A stretch of DNA of 64,000 nt from Marinomonas vulgaris (GTDB lineage Bacteria > Pseudomonadota > Gammaproteobacteria > Pseudomonadales > Marinomonadaceae), in assembly GCF_018145875.1 (NCBI RefSeq), contig NZ_JAGSSV010000015.1, positions 1 through 64,000 on the forward strand. Reading direction: 5' to 3'. Positions 1-12,532 of this stretch are shown piece after piece. Both the position numbers and the translations under genes were made by a program. The notes below the pieces were generated by a model. It saw only the letters and a list, made by a program, of their open reading frames with translations. It was not told where the DNA came from and ran no database searches. Each line of letters begins with the position of its first letter. Within the stretch, counting starts at the first letter, position 1.

Positions 1-3000
1 CGGTAACGGCGGGTGACTTAACGGTTAATGCGGGTACGAATGCAGGTAACGGCATCGCGGCGTCTGGCAATGTCTTGCTGAAAGCTAATGGTACAAGTTC
101 TGATTTGAATTTGAACGCCAACGTGACCAGCAGCGCAGGCCACATCAGCCTGAACGCCGCACAAGACGTGTTGCTCAGCGCAACACTGAACACCACTGGC
201 ACAGACAAAACTGTCGATGTGTTGGCGGCAAACAATGTGACCATGTCCAACGGTGCGACCATCACCACGAACAACAGTGATGCACGTCTTGAAGCAACCT
301 CTGGCAACATCACGACTGAGATCGTTAACCTGGGCACAGGCAGTTTGAATCTCATTGCCGGCACAGACATCTTGGATATTGATGACAGCAGCTTAATCAC
401 CGCCAACGGCTTGACTATGACGGCGGTAGGGGCGATTGGTTCAGCGACCAATACTCTGAACACCACGGTGGGTACGTTAGTAGCCAGCGCCACCAATGGC
501 AGTGTGTATGTTACAGACACTGATGATCTTATCGTTGGCAATGTGACCAGCTCGAACGATGTTGCGTTTGTGACGTCAGGCGCTTTGACCATGGCCGATA
601 ACGCCATGATCACGGCGAACAACTTGAGCTTGTCAGCAGGGGCAGCAATCGGTTCTGCGACCAATGCTATGACCACTACGGTTGAGACGTTAACAGCCAG
701 TGCCGGTGCAGGCAGTGTGTTTGTGACGGAAACAGATGGTCTGACACTAGGTGAAGTAACCAGCACCAACGGTGATGTGACCTTGACGACAACCGCAGGG
801 AATCTCGTGTTGGATCAAGCGGTAACGGCAAACGCGGTGAACTTAGTATCTGGTGCAAGCATTGTTGATGCAGGTACAAATGGCTTAATCACAGCGGATA
901 CCTTGACCATGACGGCGGTAGGGGCGATTGGTTCAGCGACCAATACTCTGAACACCACGGTGGATACGTTAATCGCTAGTGCCACCAATGGCAGTGTGTA
1001 TGTCACTGACACTGATGATCTTATCGTTGGTAATGTGACCAGCTCGAATGAAGATGTTGTATTGGCTGCGTCAGGTGCTTTGACCATGGCCGATAATGCC
1101 ATGATCACGGCGAACAACTTGAGCTTGTCAGCAGGGGCAGCAATCGGTTCTGCGACAAATGCTATGACCACTACGGTTGAGACGTTAACAGCGAGTGCCG
1201 GTGCAGGCAGTGTGTTTGTGACGGAAACAGATGGTCTGACACTAGGTGAAGTAACCAGCACCAACGGTGATGTGACCTTGACGACAACCGCAGGGAATCT
1301 CGTGTTGGATCAAGCGGTAACGGCAAACGCGGTGAACTTAGTATCTGGTGCAAGCATTGTTGATGCGGGTACAAATGGCTTGATCACAGCGGATACCTTG
1401 ACCATGACGGCGGTAGGGGCGATTGGTTCAGCGACCAATACTCTGAACACTACGGTGGGTACGTTAATCGCCAGCGCCACCAATGGCAGTGTGTATGTTA
1501 CAGACACTGATGATCTTATCGTTGGCAATGTGACCAGCTCGAACGATGTTGCGCTTGTGACGTCAGGTGCGTTGACCATGGCCGATAACGCCATGATCAC
1601 GGCGAACAACTTGAGCTTGTCAGCAGGGGCAGCAATCGGATCTGCGACCAGTGCTATGACCACCACGGTTGAGACGTTAACAGCCAGTGCCGGTTCAGGC
1701 AGTTTGTTTGTGACGGAAACGGATGGTCTGACACTAGGTGAAGTAACCAGCACCAGCGGTGATGTGACCCTGACGACAACCGCAGGGAATCTCGTGTTGG
1801 ATCAAGCGGTAACGGCAAACGCGGTGAACTTAGTATCTGGTGCAAGCATTGTTGATGCGGGTACAAACGGCTTGATCACAGCGGATACCTTGACCATGAC
1901 GACGCAAGAGGCGATTGGTTCAGCGACCAATACTCTGAACACTACGGTGGGTACGTTAGTAGCCAGCGCCACCAATGGCAGTGTGTATGTTACAGATACT
2001 GATGATCTTATCGTCGGCAATGTGACCAGCTCGAACGATGTTGCGCTTGTGACGTCAGGTGCTTTGACCATGGCCAACAACGCGATGATCACGGCAGATA
2101 ATTTGACCATGACAGCGGGTACGTCAATCGGTTCTGCGACCAATGCTATGACCACCACGGTTGAGACGTTAACGGCCAGTGCTGGTGCAGGCAGTGTGTT
2201 TGTGACAGAAACAGACAGCGTCCGCCTTGCGTCTATCACAGCAACTGATAATGCGGTAAATGTGACTGCTGCGTCGGATATTACGATCGACCGCGTTATC
2301 GCTAAGAGTGTCAGTCTTGTGTCCAGTGCGGGTAGCATTTTGAGTGGTTCAACCAGTACGGCTAACGTGACGGCAACGGATCTAAACTTGCAATCAGGCG
2401 CTAACCTAGGCACGGCGACGGCAAACCTCACCACGGATGTGGATGTGATCGAGGTGTTAAGCGGTGGCGGTGTGTATATCACGGAAGCGAATGATGTCCG
2501 TATCAATCGTGTGGCAGACAATGCGGGTGTGACAGGCAACAACGGTAATTTTGCCTTTACTACCACAGCAGGTGATATCGCGTTCAGTGATGGGGTTGTT
2601 ATAAATGGCTCTGGCGATATCCGTTTGGAAGCTGGCAATGGTACTTTGCTCGGTGAAGATCTAGCGATTAGCACGTCTGGCAATGTTGAGATGATTGCTG
2701 ATGCGTTAACGCTGGGCAATGTCGAAGCCACGAATGTGTCATTAACGGCTAAGAAAACAGACATTGCTTTCAGTCAGATTAAAGCTGATGAAACAGCCAC
2801 TTTGTTAGCGGCCGGTAAGCTATTGTCGGTGGCGGATGACTCGGTTGAGACAAATGTTACTGCGTCTACCTTTAACGTTAGCTCGAAAGGTCATGCGTTA
2901 GATCTTGTGAATAACGGCTTTATTACCGCTGTGGCGAATGTGTCTGATGATTTGATTACGGTGAAGGCCGATGTTTTGGTGAATAAAGGCACATTCGGTG

Positions 3001-3617
3001 ATGCTCAACGCATAACTAGTGGTCAAGATTCTTACATCACAAGTAACAACGATGCGGAAAAAGCGATTTATGCTCAGTTCGTTTCTCAAAATCCATCGGC
3101 TCAATATGGCAGCATGGTTGAGGATACCTTGTCGGAAGGGCAAATGGAGCAAAGTCTCATTGGCTTCGAGTCCCTCAATAACGCTAATAATTCACAACAA
3201 AACGACGTTGAAAATAGCTTGTTGTCTCGATTACAAGATGAAAACCGTGCTGCGTTAGCAGATCAGCAAAATGGCGTTGACGATTTTGTGTATATATCCC
3301 GTACAGAGGCTAATGCAGGGAATCGTTCTGAATCGAACGGTGCATCGGAAGCGAAAACTCAAATTGAGCAACAATTAGAAGCGTCCATTTTGCGTGGTAG
3401 TTCGCAAACAGCTGGTGCAAATAATGGTCTTACTTTTGGAGGGGATGTTGACCAAGGTCGCCCAAGCATGTCGCCAATACAAACCTTAATGTCTGACTTG
3501 GTGAATACAAACGGTAACCGCCAAATTGATATTTTAGGCAACACGACGGCCGATTATTTGTTCTTCTATTCTACAGATGACAATGACGAAGAATCGATTC
3601 TTGAATCTATTCTATAA
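1..3617 (+). CDS. Giant repetitive filamentous adhesin-like surface protein, C-terminal part (5' end outside window)
   Basis: The reading frame is open from base 3 with no credible start, so the gene begins to the left of the window; about 1,200 C-terminal residues are visible. The sequence is rich in Thr, Ala, Asn, Ser and Gly and I see no cysteine. Short beta-strand repeats resemble filamentous haemagglutinin/LktA-type adhesins. Four near-identical 164-165-residue units fill about bases 390-2215, then degenerate repeats run to about base 2980. The last ~200 residues are non-repetitive, polar and acidic, ending in a D/E-rich tail. There is no autotransporter or two-partner beta-barrel and no RTX nonapeptide. 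The genes just downstream encode a TolC channel, adaptors and a SecA-like ATPase, so this is probably their substrate (inference). Adhesion or biofilm function is inferred from the repeat style only. Confidence 0.8.
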   Translation, partial: VTAGDLTVNAGTNAGNGIAASGNVLLKANGTSSDLNLNANVTSSAGHISLNAAQDVLLSATLNTTGTDKTVDVLAANNVTMSNGATITTNNSDARLEATSGNITTEIVNLGTGSLNLIAGTDILDIDDSSLITANGLTMTAVGAIGSATNTLNTTVGTLVASATNGSVYVTDTDDLIVGNVTSSNDVAFVTSGALTMADNAMITANNLSLSAGAAIGSATNAMTTTVETLTASAGAGSVFVTETDGLTLGEVTSTNGDVTLTTTAGNLVLDQAVTANAVNLVSGASIVDAGTNGLITADTLTMTAVGAIGSATNTLNTTVDTLIASATNGSVYVTDTDDLIVGNVTSSNEDVVLAASGALTMADNAMITANNLSLSAGAAIGSATNAMTTTVETLTASAGAGSVFVTETDGLTLGEVTSTNGDVTLTTTAGNLVLDQAVTANAVNLVSGASIVDAGTNGLITADTLTMTAVGAIGSATNTLNTTVGTLIASATNGSVYVTDTDDLIVGNVTSSNDVALVTSGALTMADNAMITANNLSLSAGAAIGSATSAMTTTVETLTASAGSGSLFVTETDGLTLGEVTSTSGDVTLTTTAGNLVLDQAVTANAVNLVSGASIVDAGTNGLITADTLTMTTQEAIGSATNTLNTTVGTLVASATNGSVYVTDTDDLIVGNVTSSNDVALVTSGALTMANNAMITADNLTMTAGTSIGSATNAMTTTVETLTASAGAGSVFVTETDSVRLASITATDNAVNVTAASDITIDRVIAKSVSLVSSAGSILSGSTSTANVTATDLNLQSGANLGTATANLTTDVDVIEVLSGGGVYITEANDVRINRVADNAGVTGNNGNFAFTTTAGDIAFSDGVVINGSGDIRLEAGNGTLLGEDLAISTSGNVEMIADALTLGNVEATNVSLTAKKTDIAFSQIKADETATLLAAGKLLSVADDSVETNVTASTFNVSSKGHALDLVNNGFITAVANVSDDLITVKADVLVNKGTFGDAQRITSGQDSYITSNNDAEKAIYAQFVSQNPSAQYGSMVEDTLSEGQMEQSLIGFESLNNANNSQQNDVENSLLSRLQDENRAALADQQNGVDDFVYISRTEANAGNRSESNGASEAKTQIEQQLEASILRGSSQTAGANNGLTFGGDVDQGRPSMSPIQTLMSDLVNTNGNRQIDILGNTTADYLFFYSTDDNDEESILESIL
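390..2215 (+). repeat. Tandem 492/495-bp coding repeats, about 3.7 copies
   Basis: The same ten-base landmark occurs at 419, 911 and 1406, and in diverged form at 1898, giving periods of 492, 495 and 492 bp (164-165 residues). The extra codon lies in the second unit. Copies are nearly identical in DNA as well as protein, which points to recent duplication or gene conversion. Each unit contains two related halves sharing an AIGSAT...TTV...TL core and a VTDTDDL or VTETDGL strand, plus a short linker ending in GLITAD. Confidence 0.9.
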
Positions 3618-3674: not shown

Positions 3675-3693
3675 GAGTTTAAGGAAAATGATA

Positions 3694-5352
3694 ATGAAAA
3701 AAAGTTCAGTGATATACATACCTGCACTCCTTGCATCTTGTTCTTTCGTCAGTTTATCTGTTGCTGCAGAAAGAGTTGTTGCGCCACAAGAGGGTGTGAA
3801 AGACAGTGTATTTACCTTGTCTGATGGCTCAGATCAGGCCGACCCCTCGCTGTCGAAAGCACTAGATGATGTGCTGGCTAATTCTAACGCTGATGCAGCG
3901 CAACCCGCTGATCCACGGGAAAGAGTATTAAGCGTTAACAGTATTGTTCAGCAAGTATTAAAGCAAAACTCACAAGTTATCTATGCGGACATTCAACGTC
4001 AGGTTAGTGCGGAAAAGGTAAATTACGAGAATGGCGCATATCAGTCTGAGTTCTTTTCCAGTTTAAATTACAGTGATGCGCATACTCAGCGGACTGCGCA
4101 AGAGAAACTGTCATCTACTACAGCTGCTAATTTAAATATTTTGGATGAAACCAATACCTCATTCAGTGCAGGCGTGCGTAAATTGCTCACCACGGGTGGT
4201 GAAGCCACAATCAGCTTTGATACAGTGGAAAAAGACAACAACATTATCCCTTATTCATATACCTATTCTGATACACCAGAGCGTGATTCTGAATTTACCA
4301 GTGCGGTCAGGCTTCAACTCACTCAGCCATTATTAAAAGGCCTTAATAATGTTGAGGTAGAATCCCGTATTCGTCGTGCTGAACTTGAGGTAGATATTGT
4401 TGAAGCACAATATCAACAACAGTTACTAAAAATAGTGTCCCAATCCCTGTCTTTATATTGGCAGCTATACAAAGCGACGCGCTTTTTAGAGATACGTAAT
4501 TTGGCGGTTGAGAATGCTGAAAAAATGGTAATTGATATTGAAACACGTATCAAAAATGGTAAAGAGCCTGAAAGTGCTTTGGTGGATGCTAAGTCTGAAT
4601 TGCTAAAGCGTATGGTTGCATTAGCCAGTGCTCGACAAGTACAGAATGAAGTCAGTTATCAAATTTCCACCCTGGTTAACGATGATTCTGATAACCTCGG
4701 TATGGTTCGATATGTGCTCCAGTCTGGCCCTAATCATGCGCCATTTGAGTTATCTGGTTCGTTTGAAGAGTACTATCAAAGGGTTTACGCTATCTGGCCG
4801 AATGCAAAAATTCTACAACAAAATATTGCTATTCAGGATGAAGAAATTCGGGTGGCAGAGGACAGCGATTTACCAACCTTGGATTTAGAGCTGGGTTACA
4901 GCACAAGCAACCTAGCGAGAAGCAGTAATGCGGGGGACGCATTTGATCAAGAATATCCAACTTGGAATATAGGGCTAAACTTCTCAATGCCAATTGGTCA
5001 AAATCAGCGTGCAACCGCACAAAAATCCATGGCCATGTTGAAACAAGAACAACATAAGCAAGACCTGAGAGCGGTTGAAGTCAGTTTAAAAAATGACTTA
5101 CGTGCACGTTTATACCAAGTACGAACCACCCATCAAGAGATGAGCAATTTAAAAGAAAATATTGATATTCTTGAAGAGTTGTATTTATCCGAAGTGCGTA
5201 AATTCAACTTGGGTTACGGTAATATTAAAGACATTTACCTACGAGAAGATACGCTTAATCTAGAGCGTCAACGCCATATTGATGGTGTGATTAAGTATGA
5301 ATTATCAAAAGTTTCTTTAGCGCTAGCTGATGGTTCATTACTCGATATGTGA
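3694..5352 (+). CDS. TolC-family outer membrane efflux/secretion channel
   Basis: Outer membrane factor that would form the trans-periplasmic tunnel for the export system encoded around it. A signal peptide is clear (MKKSS start, hydrophobic core, cleavage near VAA-ER). It is followed by a variable ~60-residue segment and two outer-membrane-efflux repeats with long heptad-rich helices. The family usually has 420-500 residues; this one has about 552. An ATG also occurs at 3688, but the AGGA at 3682-3685 sits 8 bases from 3694 and only 2 from 3688, so 3694 is preferred. It lies between the giant adhesin and a periplasmic adaptor, all on one strand. The family assignment is firm; the substrate is inferred. 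Confidence 0.85.
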   Translation: MKKSSVIYIPALLASCSFVSLSVAAERVVAPQEGVKDSVFTLSDGSDQADPSLSKALDDVLANSNADAAQPADPRERVLSVNSIVQQVLKQNSQVIYADIQRQVSAEKVNYENGAYQSEFFSSLNYSDAHTQRTAQEKLSSTTAANLNILDETNTSFSAGVRKLLTTGGEATISFDTVEKDNNIIPYSYTYSDTPERDSEFTSAVRLQLTQPLLKGLNNVEVESRIRRAELEVDIVEAQYQQQLLKIVSQSLSLYWQLYKATRFLEIRNLAVENAEKMVIDIETRIKNGKEPESALVDAKSELLKRMVALASARQVQNEVSYQISTLVNDDSDNLGMVRYVLQSGPNHAPFELSGSFEEYYQRVYAIWPNAKILQQNIAIQDEEIRVAEDSDLPTLDLELGYSTSNLARSSNAGDAFDQEYPTWNIGLNFSMPIGQNQRATAQKSMAMLKQEQHKQDLRAVEVSLKNDLRARLYQVRTTHQEMSNLKENIDILEELYLSEVRKFNLGYGNIKDIYLREDTLNLERQRHIDGVIKYELSKVSLALADGSLLDM

Positions 5353-5404: not shown

Positions 5405-5491
5405 TAAGCTTCTTATCGCAAATAGCCGAAAAAAGAAGTTAGGTTCGAGACTAATATCAAAAATAGTCGTAGTATTGAAAACGTCCTATTG

Positions 5492-6316
5492 ATGATGAAA
5501 AGTAGTCACAGCATGATAGCAATAAAAAAAAGTGTTGCCGGTTTGTTAATGGGGTTGAGCGTGTCTTTTGTGGGTGCTCAACCTGTGGTTGGTGTTTTGT
5601 ATCCTGATATGAACTTGAAATTAGCCATGGCAGACAGTGGTGTGATACGCCATGTTCATGTGAAATCAGGCTCTGTCGTGAAGGCGTCTGACCCTCTCAT
5701 TACCCTAGACAGCACAATGCAGTCGCTCGAAGAAAAACGCAATAAACTAATTTGGCATGACACTAAAGAGCAGCAGAGTTTAGTGGCGCGACGTGATATT
5801 TTGCAGCAAAAGTATACGGTTGCTCGATTACTTTATGAGGAATCCCGTTCGATCAGTCTAGATGAACTAGATGGATTGAAATTGCAACTCATTGACCTAG
5901 AAGGTCAAATTGCTCAGCTTAATGAACGTGAAGAGCGTGAGCGCATTGAGTATGAAATCAGTGCACAACGTGTGAAAGATCGCATTCTACGTGCTCCCAT
6001 TGCTGGCATAGTTACCCAGGTGGTTCAACATCAGGGTGAATGGGCGCCTGTCGGTGAGCCTATTATTGGTTTAGTCGATGTGACTAAATTGTACGTAAAG
6101 CTCAATGTTCGTGACGCCGTTGCTCGGAATCTAGCCTTAGATTCCACCATCCCCGTGCAAGTCGAAAACCTTTCAATTCAACAAGGCTATATTGACTACA
6201 TTGCCCCCATAGCTGACGCCGCAAGTGGTTTGGTTGAGGTGAAAATTAAGCTAAATAATCCTGATGGTGCGATGCGACCTGGTGTGAGAGTGTCTGTCGA
6301 TTTAGACAGTCACTAG
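5492..6316 (+). CDS. Periplasmic adaptor (HlyD/RND membrane-fusion family)
   Basis: A periplasmic adaptor of about 274 residues. It has an N-terminal hydrophobic signal (cleavage near VGA-Q), a first lipoyl half (SGVIRHVHVKSGSVVKASD), a coiled-coil hairpin of about 80 residues rich in Glu, Lys and Gln, a second lipoyl half (ILRAPIAGIVTQVV) and a beta-barrel ending MRPGVRVSVDL. This is the standard order for adaptors that bridge an inner membrane pump to TolC. It is shorter than most because it lacks a long membrane-proximal domain. The start is uncertain: ATGs at 5492, 5495 and 5513 are all possible and none has a strong ribosome binding site. It is the second gene after the adhesin, so it probably docks on the adjacent channel. 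Confidence 0.8.
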   Translation: MMKSSHSMIAIKKSVAGLLMGLSVSFVGAQPVVGVLYPDMNLKLAMADSGVIRHVHVKSGSVVKASDPLITLDSTMQSLEEKRNKLIWHDTKEQQSLVARRDILQQKYTVARLLYEESRSISLDELDGLKLQLIDLEGQIAQLNEREERERIEYEISAQRVKDRILRAPIAGIVTQVVQHQGEWAPVGEPIIGLVDVTKLYVKLNVRDAVARNLALDSTIPVQVENLSIQQGYIDYIAPIADAASGLVEVKIKLNNPDGAMRPGVRVSVDLDSH

Positions 6317-6476: not shown

Positions 6477-8324
6477 ATGGCATCCGTTAATATTATCGAG
6501 TTTATCGATCGCCTTAGAGCGCTGCGTAAGCGCAATTTCCAATCGTCTCCAGACGTTTTCTGGGCTGATTTTGTCAATATTTCTTCTGTGCTCTGCCTTT
6601 CTGAAGGGGCACATATCCTGACAGTGACGGGGGCAGCATCACTGGTACTTCAACAAGAACAGATTGCCTCTGTAGACTCTTTCAATCAAAAGGTTAGTTT
6701 ACTTTCGCTCCCTGAATCAGAGTGGTTAACGGACTTAGTTGAGCGAGGGTTAAAAAATGGCTTTTCTGCTCATCATGATAAAGTCGCCCTACAAGACAAA
6801 CCCCATTGGTTGTGTTTCAGGTTAACCACATTACAACCCAGAGTGCTGATATTAAAAATAGCTGAAGAAAACAATGCTCGACTGAGCGATGTGGTGCTTC
6901 GAGCTCAACTAATGGCAGATATAGCCAGTGATGTGCCTGCTAAAGATGATAAAAGCGAAGCGGATTCTTTGTCACTGTTGTCGGTGATGCCTGAAATATA
7001 CGCGGCTGAATCATTAGGCTTATCCGCTTATGCTTTAGTCAATGAGTTGGTTGCGAAATGCAATGATATTGATTTGTCCGCAATAGGCTGGCAAAGAAAT
7101 GAATATGTGCGGATAGAGTGTATTAGTCATTTTGATCGTTTTGAAGAAAAGGCTGACCTAATAAAACTGTATGAAGCAGCATTGGAAGAAGCGGTTGATC
7201 AGCATTCTGTGTTACACCTTTCTTATGCGAACACAACCGATGGCATGATCGTCTTAGCTCATGAACAATTACGCCGGGCACTGGGTTGCGACGATTTAGC
7301 AACACTGGTTATTTTTGACACCAAAGGTAAGCCTATCGGCAGTGTGCTAATTGTAAAGATGAAAGGGCAGATACCGTCGAGTGTGGTGCACTCATTAACC
7401 TTTGTTTTGAGTCTTCTGTCGAGTCGATTTGATGACCTTAAACGCCAACAGGATGGTTTTTGGAAACGACTAAAACACAAAGCATCTAACGCTTTGGAAG
7501 TATTAATCGGTCCTGAATGGTTATGGACAAAAGTCGCTTCTGTGTTATTAGGAGCAATCGCTATTTGGTTGGTATTTGGCTCTTTAAGTTTTCGAATTGA
7601 GTCAAATGGGGAGTTTTTAACCGACCGGACCCAGAGAATCAATGCATCACAAGATGGTGTTGTGAACGAAGTACTTGCTACGGTCGGAGACAATGTTGAG
7701 CAAGATCAAACTTTGTTAGTACTTGAAAAACAGGATATTTTGTTGCAATTAACCGAGTTGTCCGCAGAGCGACAACGCTATCTATCAGAAGAAGATAAAG
7801 CCAGGGCGACTAATGACATTATTGAAACTGAAATTGCCAAAGCCCGTGGTGCACAAATTGATGCTCGTATTGCTCGAGTGCAGGGGATGCTGGATGAGAC
7901 CAGTATTCGTTCACCTTTTTCGGGTGTCATCATTGAGGGTGAGCGCAAAGACTTATTAGGAGCACCGATTCGAAAAGGCGATGCATTGATGACGGTGGCC
8001 CGAATCGAAGATATTTATTTGACCTTATCGGTCGATGAACGGGATATCCATTTTGTTGAAGTGGGTGATCGTGGTGAGTTTGCTTTAGTGAGCCAGCCTT
8101 TGTCACCATTGGCTTTTGAAGTGGATAAAATTATTCCGATTGCTGTGGATAGTGGTCAAAAAGGGGCGGCTTTTCAAGTGAAGGCCAAGCTGCTTGAAGC
8201 GCCACAAACTTGGTGGCGTCCAGGTATGACGGGCGTGGCTAAGATTGATAAGGGGGAAGCCGCACCTTATTGGATTTTAGGTCATAGGTCTTACAATCAG
8301 TTAAGGCTGTTATTGTGGTGGTGA
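6477..8324 (+). CDS. GAF-like/HlyD fusion: inner-membrane adaptor with large cytoplasmic domain
   Basis: The 615-residue protein has two parts. Residues 1-345 carry no signal peptide and look cytoplasmic; about 185-325 resemble a GAF fold (inference from pattern, not a profile match). One membrane span at about 350-370 is followed by an HlyD-type periplasmic region: lipoyl half-motifs QDGVVNEVLATVGDNVEQDQ and IRSPFSGVIIEG around a short coiled coil, then a barrel ending WWRPGMTGVAKI. A normal HlyD has only a short cytoplasmic tail, so the cytoplasmic part is unusual. It may be where the SecA-like ATPase or substrate docks (speculative). A 160-base AT-rich gap precedes it and could hold a promoter, though I could not assign one. 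The M50 fusion gene follows about 80 bases later. Confidence 0.75.
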   Translation: MASVNIIEFIDRLRALRKRNFQSSPDVFWADFVNISSVLCLSEGAHILTVTGAASLVLQQEQIASVDSFNQKVSLLSLPESEWLTDLVERGLKNGFSAHHDKVALQDKPHWLCFRLTTLQPRVLILKIAEENNARLSDVVLRAQLMADIASDVPAKDDKSEADSLSLLSVMPEIYAAESLGLSAYALVNELVAKCNDIDLSAIGWQRNEYVRIECISHFDRFEEKADLIKLYEAALEEAVDQHSVLHLSYANTTDGMIVLAHEQLRRALGCDDLATLVIFDTKGKPIGSVLIVKMKGQIPSSVVHSLTFVLSLLSSRFDDLKRQQDGFWKRLKHKASNALEVLIGPEWLWTKVASVLLGAIAIWLVFGSLSFRIESNGEFLTDRTQRINASQDGVVNEVLATVGDNVEQDQTLLVLEKQDILLQLTELSAERQRYLSEEDKARATNDIIETEIAKARGAQIDARIARVQGMLDETSIRSPFSGVIIEGERKDLLGAPIRKGDALMTVARIEDIYLTLSVDERDIHFVEVGDRGEFALVSQPLSPLAFEVDKIIPIAVDSGQKGAAFQVKAKLLEAPQTWWRPGMTGVAKIDKGEAAPYWILGHRSYNQLRLLLWW

Positions 8325-8404: not shown

Positions 8405-10561
8405 ATGTCTAGCACCTTTAGTGAAGGATGGTATCAGGTCGCTCAGTTAAAAGTCGCCTTGATCCCGACGACCAAGGTACACAAACAGCTGTATCGTGGC
8501 TTAGTGTGGTATGTGTTACAGGATGCGTGTTCTGGGAAGTTTTTTCGTGTTCCTGAAACCGTATACCGTTTTTTGAGCCGTCTTACGGTGAGTAAATCCA
8601 TTGAACAAGTGTGGCAAGAGTTTATTGAGGCTTACCCTGAAGAGGCTCCAGGCCAAGAAGAAGTGATTCAGGTTTTATCTCAACTCCATCACAGTAACTT
8701 ATTATTTTATCGCTCCGAGTCCGATCATGAAGCGATATTAGACCGTAAAAATAAGCAAACACGCCAAGAACATCTTACCAAGTTGATGGCATTCATGTAT
8801 CTACGGGTGCCAATTTGGAACCCCGACACCATGCTATCTACTTTCGCAAGGCTGTTGTACCCGCTATTCAGTAAGACGGCTTTTATCGTGTGGTTAATTG
8901 TTATCGGACTGGGTGTCGAGACGGTTTTGTCGAACTGGGGAGCTGTCCGCACACAGGGGCAGGGTTTCTTGTCACCGGATAATCTTTTTTTACTTTATGT
9001 GGGCTTGTTTGGTCTTAAGTTTATCCATGAAATAGGTCACGCGATTGCCATTAGGCATTTTGGCGGTCAAGTTAATACCATTGGTCTGATGTTTATCATT
9101 TTGACGCCTCTCCCTTATGTCGACGCAACTCAAACATGGTCTCTGCGCAATCGTTGGCAACGTGCCATTGTTGGTGGCGCAGGCATGTACTTTGAGCTGT
9201 TTATAGCGGCTTTGGCAGCCATGGTTTGGTCACAAACAGCACCAGGTGTGCTCAATAGCCTGGCGTACAACTTGATGATTATTGGTTCGGTGTCGAGTTT
9301 GCTCTTTAATGGCAACCCATTGCTGAAATTTGATGCCTATTACATTTTGTCTGATGCGACAGATTTGCCAAACTTGTACAAGAAAGGCAGCGAACAATGG
9401 TTGTACTATTTAAATCGCTGGCTTTTAGGAACACAAAAAGCTGAGTCTCCGTCTGATAATGCCTATGAAAGATCTTGGTATACGTTTTATGGTGTAGCAA
9501 GCTTATTTTATCGTTTAGCGATTGTGCTGATTATTACCTTGTATGCAGCGGACTTATGGATTGGCCTTGGTGTCGCCATGTTGGTGGTGTCATTTGGTAT
9601 GTGGGTAGTGATTCCGCTGTGGAAGTTATTACGCTTTTTATCCAGTAATGGTCAGTTGCGGAAAAATCGACGTCGAGCCTGGTTTGTTAGTGCAAGTGTG
9701 TTCTTTACCTTGGTGGTGGCTATTTCTTTGATTCCTATCCCTTACAACATCAAGGCGCCTGGCGTGGTACAAGCGACGAATAGTAGCCAGATGTTTACTC
9801 AATCGGGAGGTTACCTGCTGGATGCTAACTTAGTCAGTGGGGGGGCTGTCGCTAAGGGAGATGTGCTGGCACGTTTTAATAATCCAGATTTGAATCATCA
9901 ATACGAGCTGGTGACTCAACAGATGGCAGAAGTTAACTGGCGCTTACGTCAGTCTCTCGATAATGATCAAGCCAGTCAAGTGGCCTTAAGGCGCCAGCAA
10001 TTGGCATTGCAGGAGCAGCGAGATGAGCTTAATAGTCGTCTGGAAAAGTTGGCCGTTGTGGCGCCTTTTGACGGTGTATGGATGCCCGCTCAGCTCAAAA
10101 GTAAATTAGGAACTTTTTTTAACCAGTTAGATGAAGTCGGCACCTTGTATGATTTATCAAGTTTGCGATTTTCTGCCGTAGTGACCCAAGAACAAGCGTC
10201 GAACCTATTTGATTCTCAACTTAGCTCAAACAGTGAATTACGCCTTGCTGGCCAAACTGATACTACACTGAGTATCCAGCAGTTGCAGCTCAATCCATTT
10301 CGTCAAACAGTATTGCCATCGCCAGCATTGGGTTGGGCTGGCGGAGGGCCTATCATGGCGCAACGAGATGAAAATGGTAGCATGGTGGCGCAAGAACCCT
10401 TTTTTGAAATTACCGTACCTTTGTCCCTTGATGAGAGCCCAGAACTTCGTACTTTGGAAGGCATGACAGGTTGGTTATTGATTGACTTACAATGGAAATC
10501 TATTTTTTGGCAAGCTCGACAAACTGTCTTGCAGGTTCTACAACGCCGGTACCAAATTTAA
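8405..10561 (+). CDS. PqqD-like / M50 site-2 protease-like / HlyD fusion membrane protein
   Basis: Three parts are visible in 718 residues. Residues ~20-110 resemble a PqqD/winged-helix peptide-binding domain (YVLQDACSGKFFRVPETVYR). Residues ~145-420 form a multi-span M50 domain with zinc motif HEIGH at 208-212 and the second motif N304-P305...D310 in NGNPLLKFDAYY. After a span at ~428-446 comes a periplasmic HlyD region with lipoyl halves and a coiled coil. Catalytic residues are intact, so it may cleave in the membrane, but related fusions may act only as transport subunits. The ATG at 8405 is preferred over a TTG at 8381. It ends 3 bases before the SecA-like gene, so translation of the two is probably coupled. 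Confidence 0.8.
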   Translation: MSSTFSEGWYQVAQLKVALIPTTKVHKQLYRGLVWYVLQDACSGKFFRVPETVYRFLSRLTVSKSIEQVWQEFIEAYPEEAPGQEEVIQVLSQLHHSNLLFYRSESDHEAILDRKNKQTRQEHLTKLMAFMYLRVPIWNPDTMLSTFARLLYPLFSKTAFIVWLIVIGLGVETVLSNWGAVRTQGQGFLSPDNLFLLYVGLFGLKFIHEIGHAIAIRHFGGQVNTIGLMFIILTPLPYVDATQTWSLRNRWQRAIVGGAGMYFELFIAALAAMVWSQTAPGVLNSLAYNLMIIGSVSSLLFNGNPLLKFDAYYILSDATDLPNLYKKGSEQWLYYLNRWLLGTQKAESPSDNAYERSWYTFYGVASLFYRLAIVLIITLYAADLWIGLGVAMLVVSFGMWVVIPLWKLLRFLSSNGQLRKNRRRAWFVSASVFFTLVVAISLIPIPYNIKAPGVVQATNSSQMFTQSGGYLLDANLVSGGAVAKGDVLARFNNPDLNHQYELVTQQMAEVNWRLRQSLDNDQASQVALRRQQLALQEQRDELNSRLEKLAVVAPFDGVWMPAQLKSKLGTFFNQLDEVGTLYDLSSLRFSAVVTQEQASNLFDSQLSSNSELRLAGQTDTTLSIQQLQLNPFRQTVLPSPALGWAGGGPIMAQRDENGSMVAQEPFFEITVPLSLDESPELRTLEGMTGWLLIDLQWKSIFWQARQTVLQVLQRRYQI

Positions 10562-10564
10562 TTT

Positions 10565-12532
10565 ATGAGTGCATTTTTTGAACCTCGGCTGTCTTTAGAT
10601 TCGCCCTCTGCTCTAGCCTCAAAATGGCATTTGTGGCGCAACAAACGTAATCATTCGGCACGAGTGCAAGGCTATTTAGAGGAAGGAAAACAGATCACTG
10701 GGTTGGTCGATCAATACAGAGCGTTAAGTGAGTCGGATTTTTCTGCTCAACAGCAACGTTTTGAAAGCCTTGCTCGACGTGGCCGACTTGCAACTCAGCG
10801 GGAAGACTTACACAAGGCTTTAGCGTGCATTGTTGTGCTTAGCGAGCGTCATCTTGGTATGGCGCCTTATCCAATACAATTAAGCTGTGCCCTTGCCATG
10901 ATCGATGGTTATCTTGTTCAGCTTGCTCCCGGCGAAGGCAAGACACTGACCATCGGCGTGGTGTCCGTGATCTTTGGCTGGAGCCAAAAACCCTGTCATG
11001 TCATCACCGCCAATGATTATTTGGCAGAACGTGATCGTGAAAAGTTGCAGCCATTGTATGAAGCGACAAATGTTGTCGCCAGCTTTGTTGAGCAAGAACT
11101 GGATCCAGAAGAGAAAGCAAGGCGTTACCAAGCTCATATTGTTTATGCAACCGCGAAGCAGCTGCTTGCTGATTATTTGAATGATGTGATTAAACTCGGC
11201 GGGTTAGCAAGTCGAACACGCATGGCACTCACAAACTGGCAGGCCGGCGGCCATTCGCTGCAAATGCGCGGTTTATATTATGTGATCATTGATGAAGCGG
11301 ATTCCATTCTCATTGATGACGCCACCACGCCCTTGATTATCTCAGCCCAAGAAGAAAATGGTTTGTTGCACGAGGCAGTACTGATAGCAAAAGAGTTTGT
11401 TGATACGCTAGAGGCTGATCGAGACTACAAATTGCAGCAGGACGATTGGGACATTCAATTCACGCCGTTAGGCCAGCAAAAAATCACCGAGGGAACGCAA
11501 AAGTTTCCAATGCTTTGGCATCATAGAGGACGTTTAGAGGATCTTATTTCTCAAGCTATTTTAGCCAGAGACCGTTTCAAATTGGATGAGCATTTTGTCA
11601 TTGTTGATGAAGAGGTGATCTTAGTAGACGAATCAACAGGGCGCATGATGCATGGTCGTTCTTGGAGCTATGGCTTACATCAGGCCGTGGAAGCTCGAGT
11701 AGATGTACCACTAACCCCTCCTAGTAAGACGCTTGAAAAAATGAGTTTTCAGAACTTTTTTCAGTCCTATCACCATTTAACGGGAGCCAGCGGTACTTTA
11801 CAGAATGTTCAGCAAGAGCTTTTTCATACCTACCGTGTTCATACATTGGAGATGCCCACGCGTTTGCCTCTGAAGCTCAAAGTATCGGACTTCCAGTGTC
11901 ATTTATCAAAGGAAGATAAAAACCAAGCATTAATTGCGCTTATTCATCGTATCCAAGAATCAGGGTTGCCGATCTTATTAGGGACGCGCCGAATACGAGA
12001 TACAGAACAGCTTGAGGTGATTCTAGAGCAAGCTGGTTTTGAATTTAATGTGCTAAATGCGAAACGGTTAGCGCAAGAGGCTGACATTGTCGCAACGGCT
12101 GGTGAAATGAGAAAAATTACCTTGTCTACTAACATGGCGGGGCGCGGTACGGATATTCCGGTTGAAAAAGAGGTGCTGGCATTGGGTGGGCTGCAAGTCA
12201 TTATGTACGAGCCGCACGACTCTTCTCGTATTGATTGGCAGTTGTTTGGTCGAGCTGGGCGTCAAGGGAATCCCGGTCACGCATTTCCACTGCTCAGTTT
12301 AGAAGACCCCTTGTTTCAGAATTTGAAGTGGCGTCAGCGGCCTCTATTTTGGTTGGCGCGGCAGCTTTTGAATCATTCGATCGGTAGATCTCTGGTAAAA
12401 AAATTGGTGACATCCGCACAAAGAAACGCACAAGCAAAAGCGTTCAAGCAGCGTAAGTATATTGCCAAAACGGTACGTTCTTCCCAAGAAAGAATGAGTT
12501 TTATACGTAATAAAACACAGCTTAAAAGTTAA
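10565..12532 (+). CDS. SecA-like accessory ATPase, C-terminally truncated
   Basis: Clear SecA paralogue: Walker A APGEGKT at 121-127, DEAD box 243-246 within IIDEADSILIDDATTPLIIS, the peptide-crosslinking region, a VDESTGRMMHGRSWSYGLHQ block, NMAGRGTDI at 523-531 and the arginine-finger motif GRAGRQG at 562-568. SecA normally has 830-900 residues. This one ends at 655, just into the long scaffold helix (SAQRNAQAKAFKQRKYI), with no helical wing domain and no C-terminal zinc/SecB tail. It is therefore not the housekeeping SecA. Its place, 3 bases after the M50/HlyD fusion in the adhesin export cluster, suggests a dedicated motor for that substrate. The family call is firm; the role is inferred. 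Confidence 0.85.
   Translation: MSAFFEPRLSLDSPSALASKWHLWRNKRNHSARVQGYLEEGKQITGLVDQYRALSESDFSAQQQRFESLARRGRLATQREDLHKALACIVVLSERHLGMAPYPIQLSCALAMIDGYLVQLAPGEGKTLTIGVVSVIFGWSQKPCHVITANDYLAERDREKLQPLYEATNVVASFVEQELDPEEKARRYQAHIVYATAKQLLADYLNDVIKLGGLASRTRMALTNWQAGGHSLQMRGLYYVIIDEADSILIDDATTPLIISAQEENGLLHEAVLIAKEFVDTLEADRDYKLQQDDWDIQFTPLGQQKITEGTQKFPMLWHHRGRLEDLISQAILARDRFKLDEHFVIVDEEVILVDESTGRMMHGRSWSYGLHQAVEARVDVPLTPPSKTLEKMSFQNFFQSYHHLTGASGTLQNVQQELFHTYRVHTLEMPTRLPLKLKVSDFQCHLSKEDKNQALIALIHRIQESGLPILLGTRRIRDTEQLEVILEQAGFEFNVLNAKRLAQEADIVATAGEMRKITLSTNMAGRGTDIPVEKEVLALGGLQVIMYEPHDSSRIDWQLFGRAGRQGNPGHAFPLLSLEDPLFQNLKWRQRPLFWLARQLLNHSIGRSLVKKLVTSAQRNAQAKAFKQRKYIAKTVRSSQERMSFIRNKTQLKS

Follow-up and report, generated by a model that had tools for sequence, protein, structure and literature searches.

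The window, i.e., the whole stretch of 64,000 nucleotides of Marinomonas vulgaris DNA analyzed here, carries a cluster of six open reading frames that all lie on the + strand and follow each other in this order:

1..3617, + strand: 3' end of the gene for a giant repetitive exoprotein (open reading frame from base 3 of the contig; repeats)
3688..5352, + strand: TolC-family outer membrane protein (Pfam OEP, 1.5e-31)
5489..6316, + strand: HlyD-type periplasmic adaptor (HlyD_D23, 2.3e-15; HlyD_3, 1.2e-12)
6477..8324, + strand: GAF/HlyD-type membrane fusion protein, GAF/HlyD below (HlyD_3, 6.6e-15)
8405..10561, + strand: fusion of a PqqD-like part, an M50 intramembrane protease and HlyD, M50/HlyD below (Peptidase_M50, 2.3e-7)
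10565..12532, + strand: short SecA-like ATPase of 655 aa, short SecA below (ATG start; open reading frame, Pfam, family tree and AlphaFold model)

The start of M50/HlyD is the ATG at 8405, the listed open reading frame beginning at TTG 8381; its stop ends at 10561, leaving the 3-base gap to the short SecA ATG at 10565 that an earlier note, made from the letters of this DNA, had described. A GAF domain in the GAF/HlyD protein of the window gave no match at E 0.1; in relatives it was found at E 0.1 or better in all eight that were scanned, three of them clearly above the Pfam cut-off and one at the cut-off. With HlyD adaptors and TolC the cluster resembles a Type I secretion system. Unlike in such a system, there is no ABC transporter among the six cluster reading frames, which offer a SecA-like ATPase and M50/HlyD instead, and the signal is suspected to be N-terminal.

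Pfam (E 0.001) assigns SecA_DEAD (2.1e-70), P-loop_SecA (6.9e-40) and SecA_PP_bind (8.4e-23) to the 655-aa protein and gives no wing-scaffold match at that threshold; the translation contains GEGKT, DEAD, NMAGRGTDI and GRAGRQG, and its Walker lysine is K126. The AlphaFold model of short SecA alone (15 sequences; pLDDT 82, pTM 0.77), a prediction that the earlier note had called for, aligns to substrate-engaged SecA (6itc_A) over 591 residues (Z 40.4, 3.4 Å, chain range 14-617), to B. subtilis SecA (2ibm_B) with Z 41.9 and an rmsd of 11.7 Å over 587 residues, the domains being shifted, and to E. coli 2fsf_A over the chain range 13-665. Its last element is a helix at 605-653. By sequence, the nearest solved structures are those of C. 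difficile SecA2 and B. subtilis SecA, and the sequence match to 6t4h stops at residue 618 of 781. Short SecA keeps NBD1, PPXD, NBD2 and the beginning of the scaffold; the wing, the two-helix finger, the second (far) part of the scaffold and the zinc tail have no counterpart in it. Translation, Pfam and model all agree with the description in the earlier note of a SecA paralogue with intact ATPase motifs and an end just inside the (first) scaffold helix, as do the Pfam result and the model alignments for the missing wing, scaffold end and zinc tail, and the SecA_PP_bind match for the retained polypeptide-crosslinking region. The statement that the clamp is missing is wrong, because the clamp is built from PPXD plus scaffold segments, according to the available part of PMC6599042, and PPXD is kept. 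From the retained PPXD, short SecA is predicted to bind substrate.

Canonical SecA (SecA1) has a wing, a two-helix finger and a zinc tail, all three missing in short SecA, which reaches 423 of 800 bits against the canonical model TIGR00963, below the cut-off. SecA2 is a second SecA having its own cargo. Short SecA also lies under the SecA2 cut-offs (TIGR03714, 386 of 930; TIGR04397, 392 of 1085; NF012136, 324 of 1100; TIGR04221, 327 of 725), and SecA2 chains (C. difficile 6t4h/6sxh and mycobacterial 4uaq) have 778-786 residues versus 655.

A full-length canonical SecA (frame of 944 aa) is present elsewhere in the same genome, on contig C9, as the earlier note had expected of a paralogue; a third SecA_DEAD match, on contig C33, covers just part of the domain at a low score (27.6 bits, and 24.6 bits with the short-SecA profile), and the only short SecA gene of the genome is that of the window. 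The protein ends at the same position in Marinomonas algarum (94%), Maribrevibacterium (74%), a Pseudomonadaceae MAG (76%) and Thiomicrospira (55%). More broadly, all 47 measurable proteins among 48 short rows end 113-134 residues past GRGTD, whereas canonical rows, measured in the 16 of 18 that contain GRGTD, end 343-431 residues past it; the zinc-tail pattern occurs in none of the 48 short rows versus 17/18 canonical ones, and the motor motifs were detected in 45 to 47 of the 48. A phylogeny, a kind of check that the earlier note had proposed, supports a distinct group: in a tree of 72 rows, built by a quick method, a single branch (SH-aLRT 99) separates the 48 short SecA rows (the window's included) from all others. 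The sampled genomes have 65 short genes, of which 44, again with that of the window, were used together with four further relatives. A hint of a shared C-terminal motif comes from [LMIV][SAT]F, present in 36/48 short rows versus 2.3 expected from shuffled tails.

Since the protein stops in mid-scaffold relative to SecA, one may think of a decaying or frameshifted secA copy. This is ruled out, with a negligible residual chance in our estimate, by the fixed end of the family, by a dN/dS of 0.029 versus Marinomonas algarum, i.e., short SecA is under purifying selection, and by the lack of an encoded tail downstream: canonical C-tails searched within 3 kb downstream of the window gene and of 47 relatives gave no match while the positive controls were recovered, which speaks against the frameshift removing the C-terminal part that the earlier note had named as a refutation. 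A virus-borne short SecA was also considered and rejected; a pattern-based scan of viral contigs yielded 18 SecA relatives (five of these loci were left out of the tree), none with an M50/HlyD match in the flank examined. Please note that in one genome (G117, C4:464115 and C2:72895) the short SecA match contains one in-frame TGA and the canonical-type SecA frame is just 676 codons long, which may reflect recoding, decay or an error in sequencing.

In 44 of 46 other loci M50/HlyD is the gene immediately upstream of short SecA and shares its strand, and GAF/HlyD lies upstream of M50/HlyD in 42/46. At one locus (L137) 1.1 kb separate M50/HlyD and short SecA. The other (L106:1768-3780), a short SecA without adjoining M50/HlyD, is a true exception: its contig extends 1.8 kb upstream and gave no M50 match there. 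Among 43 loci of the sampled genomes, TolC was matched in 7 and HlyD in 25. A kinase-like gene (family assigned by sight) sits in or beside the cluster in Maribrevibacterium (L007:4685-5641) and Thiomicrospira (L009:11730-12716); a search of the Marinomonas vulgaris genome, run without a positive control, did not find one.

The translation of M50/HlyD contains HEIGH and NPLLKFD. HExxH is kept in 49/50 M50/HlyD proteins, a contig end having truncated the remaining one. The NPLxxFD-type motif is likewise kept in 49/50, with the exception of the second system of Marinomonas vulgaris on contig C8. The N-terminal 125 residues match PqqD (PF05402) in 25 of 33 members at the lax limit of E 5 (best 1e-9); the protein in the window gives E 8.9e-4 and 20 bits, below the Pfam cut-off of 23.4, and a profile of the N-terminal region finds PqqD 3g2b in the PDB (E 0.0019). 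The PqqD-like region (window 8405-8783), fused as it is to an M50 protease and HlyD, could be a leader-binding module on a protein exporter. Daptide and epipeptide systems also combine M50 proteases with PqqD-type leader recognition (NF041824, NF058609, PF05402), and M50/HlyD matches daptide_HExxH (152.6 bits; curated cut-off 300) and, weakly, PqqD; in contrast to them, the M50 is here fused to HlyD and the cargo would be giant proteins rather than small peptides. M50/HlyD looks like more than a channel because the protease motifs are kept and its N-terminus is PqqD-like. Its structure model (four sequences) has a pLDDT of 41, and no pore is readable in it.

The candidate cargo is marked by the LEPR-XLL motif (NF012209), which we take to be a mark of very large proteins. 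It occurs twice in the Marinomonas vulgaris genome, on contigs C14 and C8, and not on the contig of the window (C6). The C14 frame has 13,532 codons and runs to the contig end, and the repeats that close it are very similar to those of window 1-3617. The first 77 bases of C6 recur 592 bases from the C14 end; there is no exact end overlap of the two giant-gene pieces, just this 77-base shared string. We infer that window 1-3617 and the C14 LEPR-XLL frame belong to one gene. The N-terminus of the giant protein lies off the window's contig, with a candidate start on C14, and the protein is likely a substrate of the system. After the C8 giant (5,082 codons, C8:36056 onward; L014:24-15272, L061) come GAF/HlyD and a distant M50/HlyD, and this second system has no own short SecA. 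A further repetitive gene, with 2,148 codons inside the stretch covered and an open 5' edge, lies beside the LEPR-XLL start on C14 (L012:5484-11930, minus strand).

Across genomes, short SecA shows a statistical association with LEPR-XLL genes and is often physically linked to them. The order sample (n=145) has 10 genomes with short SecA, 16 with LEPR and 9 with both (9/10; Fisher p 1.8e-9); the class sample (n=303) 16, 21 and 12 (12/16; p 4.7e-13); the phylum sample (n=299) 33, 39 and 27 (27/33; p 1.7e-23), the samples sharing some genomes and the p values ignoring shared ancestry. Over the samples, 56 genomes have short SecA, 70 have LEPR and 45 have both. Where both occur, 27/54 short SecA genes are on the same contig as a LEPR open reading frame and 25/54 lie within 20 kb of it. 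The 11 of 56 short-SecA genomes that have no LEPR match are all assemblies of about 80 or more contigs. In the order sample M50/HlyD (E 1e-30) is found in 40/145 genomes, including 10/10 with short SecA and 16/16 with LEPR. The close M50/HlyD type, defined by 575 bits or more with the cut set at a gap in the scores, occurs in 22 of them, 12 without short SecA, and five of these 12 have LEPR-XLL. Since LEPR-XLL systems without short SecA exist, short SecA is an optional part of LEPR systems and not universally needed.

The N-termini of the LEPR proteins differ as well. The leader ahead of the motif has a median length of 40 in SecA-linked LEPR proteins, but of 20.5 where the genome lacks short SecA (p 0.005); LL is followed by a serine in 23/25 of the former versus 11/20 of the latter. 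For 63 of 93 LEPR open reading frames, with start codons picked by rule, the greatest 12-residue hydrophobicity has medians of 0.95-1.39 in three groups versus 1.97 and 1.99 for TolC and HlyD of the window, values that 3/63 LEPR N-termini exceed.

We consider, with a probability of roughly 0.55, that short SecA supplies the ATPase activity of a machine dedicated to exporting giant LEPR-XLL surface proteins. In favor of this are the co-occurrence and linkage with LEPR-XLL, the near-constant M50/HlyD neighbor with its protease motifs and PqqD-like N-terminus, the low hydrophobicity of most LEPR N-termini and the lack of an ABC transporter in the cluster; against it stand the LEPR-XLL genomes with close M50/HlyD and no short SecA, the 11 short-SecA genomes without a LEPR match, the L106 exception, the rarity of TolC matches, the location of the LEPR starts on other contigs in the genome of the window and the sub-threshold PqqD match of the window. 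Its motor probably works without SecYEG: lacking the finger and wing, it should not act on SecYEG like normal SecA. Normal SecA holds the chain with its clamp and, in one model described in the available part of PMC6599042, pushes it with the two-helix finger; short SecA has the clamp and no two-helix finger, and the chain would then be moved either by cycling of the clamp or by a finger that a partner contributes. E. coli SecA fragments of similar length (N649-N668) show high lipid-stimulated ATPase and zero translocation with or without SecYEG, as described in PMC5456053. A clamp without a finger, together with these non-translocating fragments, makes a partner likely for short SecA, and M50/HlyD is its near-constant neighbor.

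The same observations bear on an alternative in which short SecA is an accessory motor on ordinary SecYEG, like Gram-positive SecA2, and HlyD, M50 and TolC perform later steps. The closest solved relatives, C. difficile SecA2 and B. subtilis SecA, would fit this, as would the retained PPXD, a SecY-contacting part (PMC6599042, available part), and the ion-channel activity that the E. coli fragments do give with SecYEG (PMC5456053, same part). Yet the finger and wing are absent, because the family ends 113-134 residues after GRGTD, in 47/47 measurable proteins, rather than 343-431; short SecA is far under the SecA2 cut-offs (386 of 930 bits) and the fragments do not translocate (PMC5456053). We regard this alternative as unlikely.

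A SecYEG-independent route can be drawn for the export machine, in which a SecY-free SecA motor drives the LEPR-XLL giants with PqqD-like selection, an intramembrane-protease channel and an HlyD/TolC conduit; we offer it tentatively, as possible rather than probable. The steps proposed for the export machine as we prefer to read it are as follows: the PqqD-like domain of M50/HlyD would bind the basic N-terminal leader carrying the LEPR-XLL motif, the PPXD clamp of short SecA would grip the unfolded chain and feed it into a path made by M50/HlyD and GAF/HlyD, by clamp cycling or with a partner's finger, the M50 site may cleave the leader or another segment, and HlyD and TolC would take the chain out of the cell.

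Short SecA could instead act in the cytosol as a holdase or unfoldase, keeping the giant chain ready for export, with a different source of energy driving the movement. LEPR/M50 systems without short SecA are compatible with such a role, and LEPR frames are longer with short SecA (median 6562 versus 2514 codons; n=45 and 25, p 0.002), as if it were a helper for the largest chains; the difference is also seen (p 0.011; n=16 and 8) among assemblies with no more than about 60 contigs. However, contig ends truncate the frames and the comparison ignores shared ancestry, and the tight coupling to the gene of a membrane protein is more in keeping with a motor bound to the membrane. We find a holdase improbable, and prefer the dedicated export motor.

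Second SecA_DEAD proteins together with a T1SS-like locus were described by Kamneva, Poudel and Ward in 2015 (PMC4452313), who, in the part of that paper available, proposed SecA_DEAD as the ATPase and M50 as a possible pore and called the broader biological role "completely unknown"; Methylobacterium extorquens AM1 is among the bacteria for which they report the locus. The genome of the window likewise has an extra SecA_DEAD protein beside canonical SecA, with all or most of the wing-scaffold missing as in their proteins, and M50/HlyD, GAF/HlyD and HlyD neighbors, sometimes with OEP, as in their locus, GAF being unmatched in the window's own copy. Thus, the suggestion in the earlier note of a new partner membrane channel is supported for the partnership, M50/HlyD being directly upstream almost throughout, and not for its novelty, as the idea is already in PMC4452313, while the protease and PqqD-like parts suggest more than a channel. 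As far as its available text goes, that paper names no substrate, and "LEPR" is absent from its main text. What is added to the 2015 description is LEPR-XLL giants as likely cargo, a PqqD-like N-terminal domain and the conservation of the protease motifs; none of the three had a published description among the matches listed, preprints and most subscription papers being outside that scope, and no other description of this locus appeared among them, judged from titles, abstract starts and passages. There, LEPR-XLL occurs in two papers, as an annotation.

The LEPR-XLL tie gives the 2015 question about the role of the second SecA a named candidate cargo, and should the motor prove independent of SecYEG, it would reveal which parts of SecA are sufficient to move a chain. 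Some LEPR-XLL proteins have open frames of more than 10,000 codons, up to 19,427 (G492, contig C115:112865), and a single genome (G382) contains five LEPR-XLL open reading frames and two short SecA genes.
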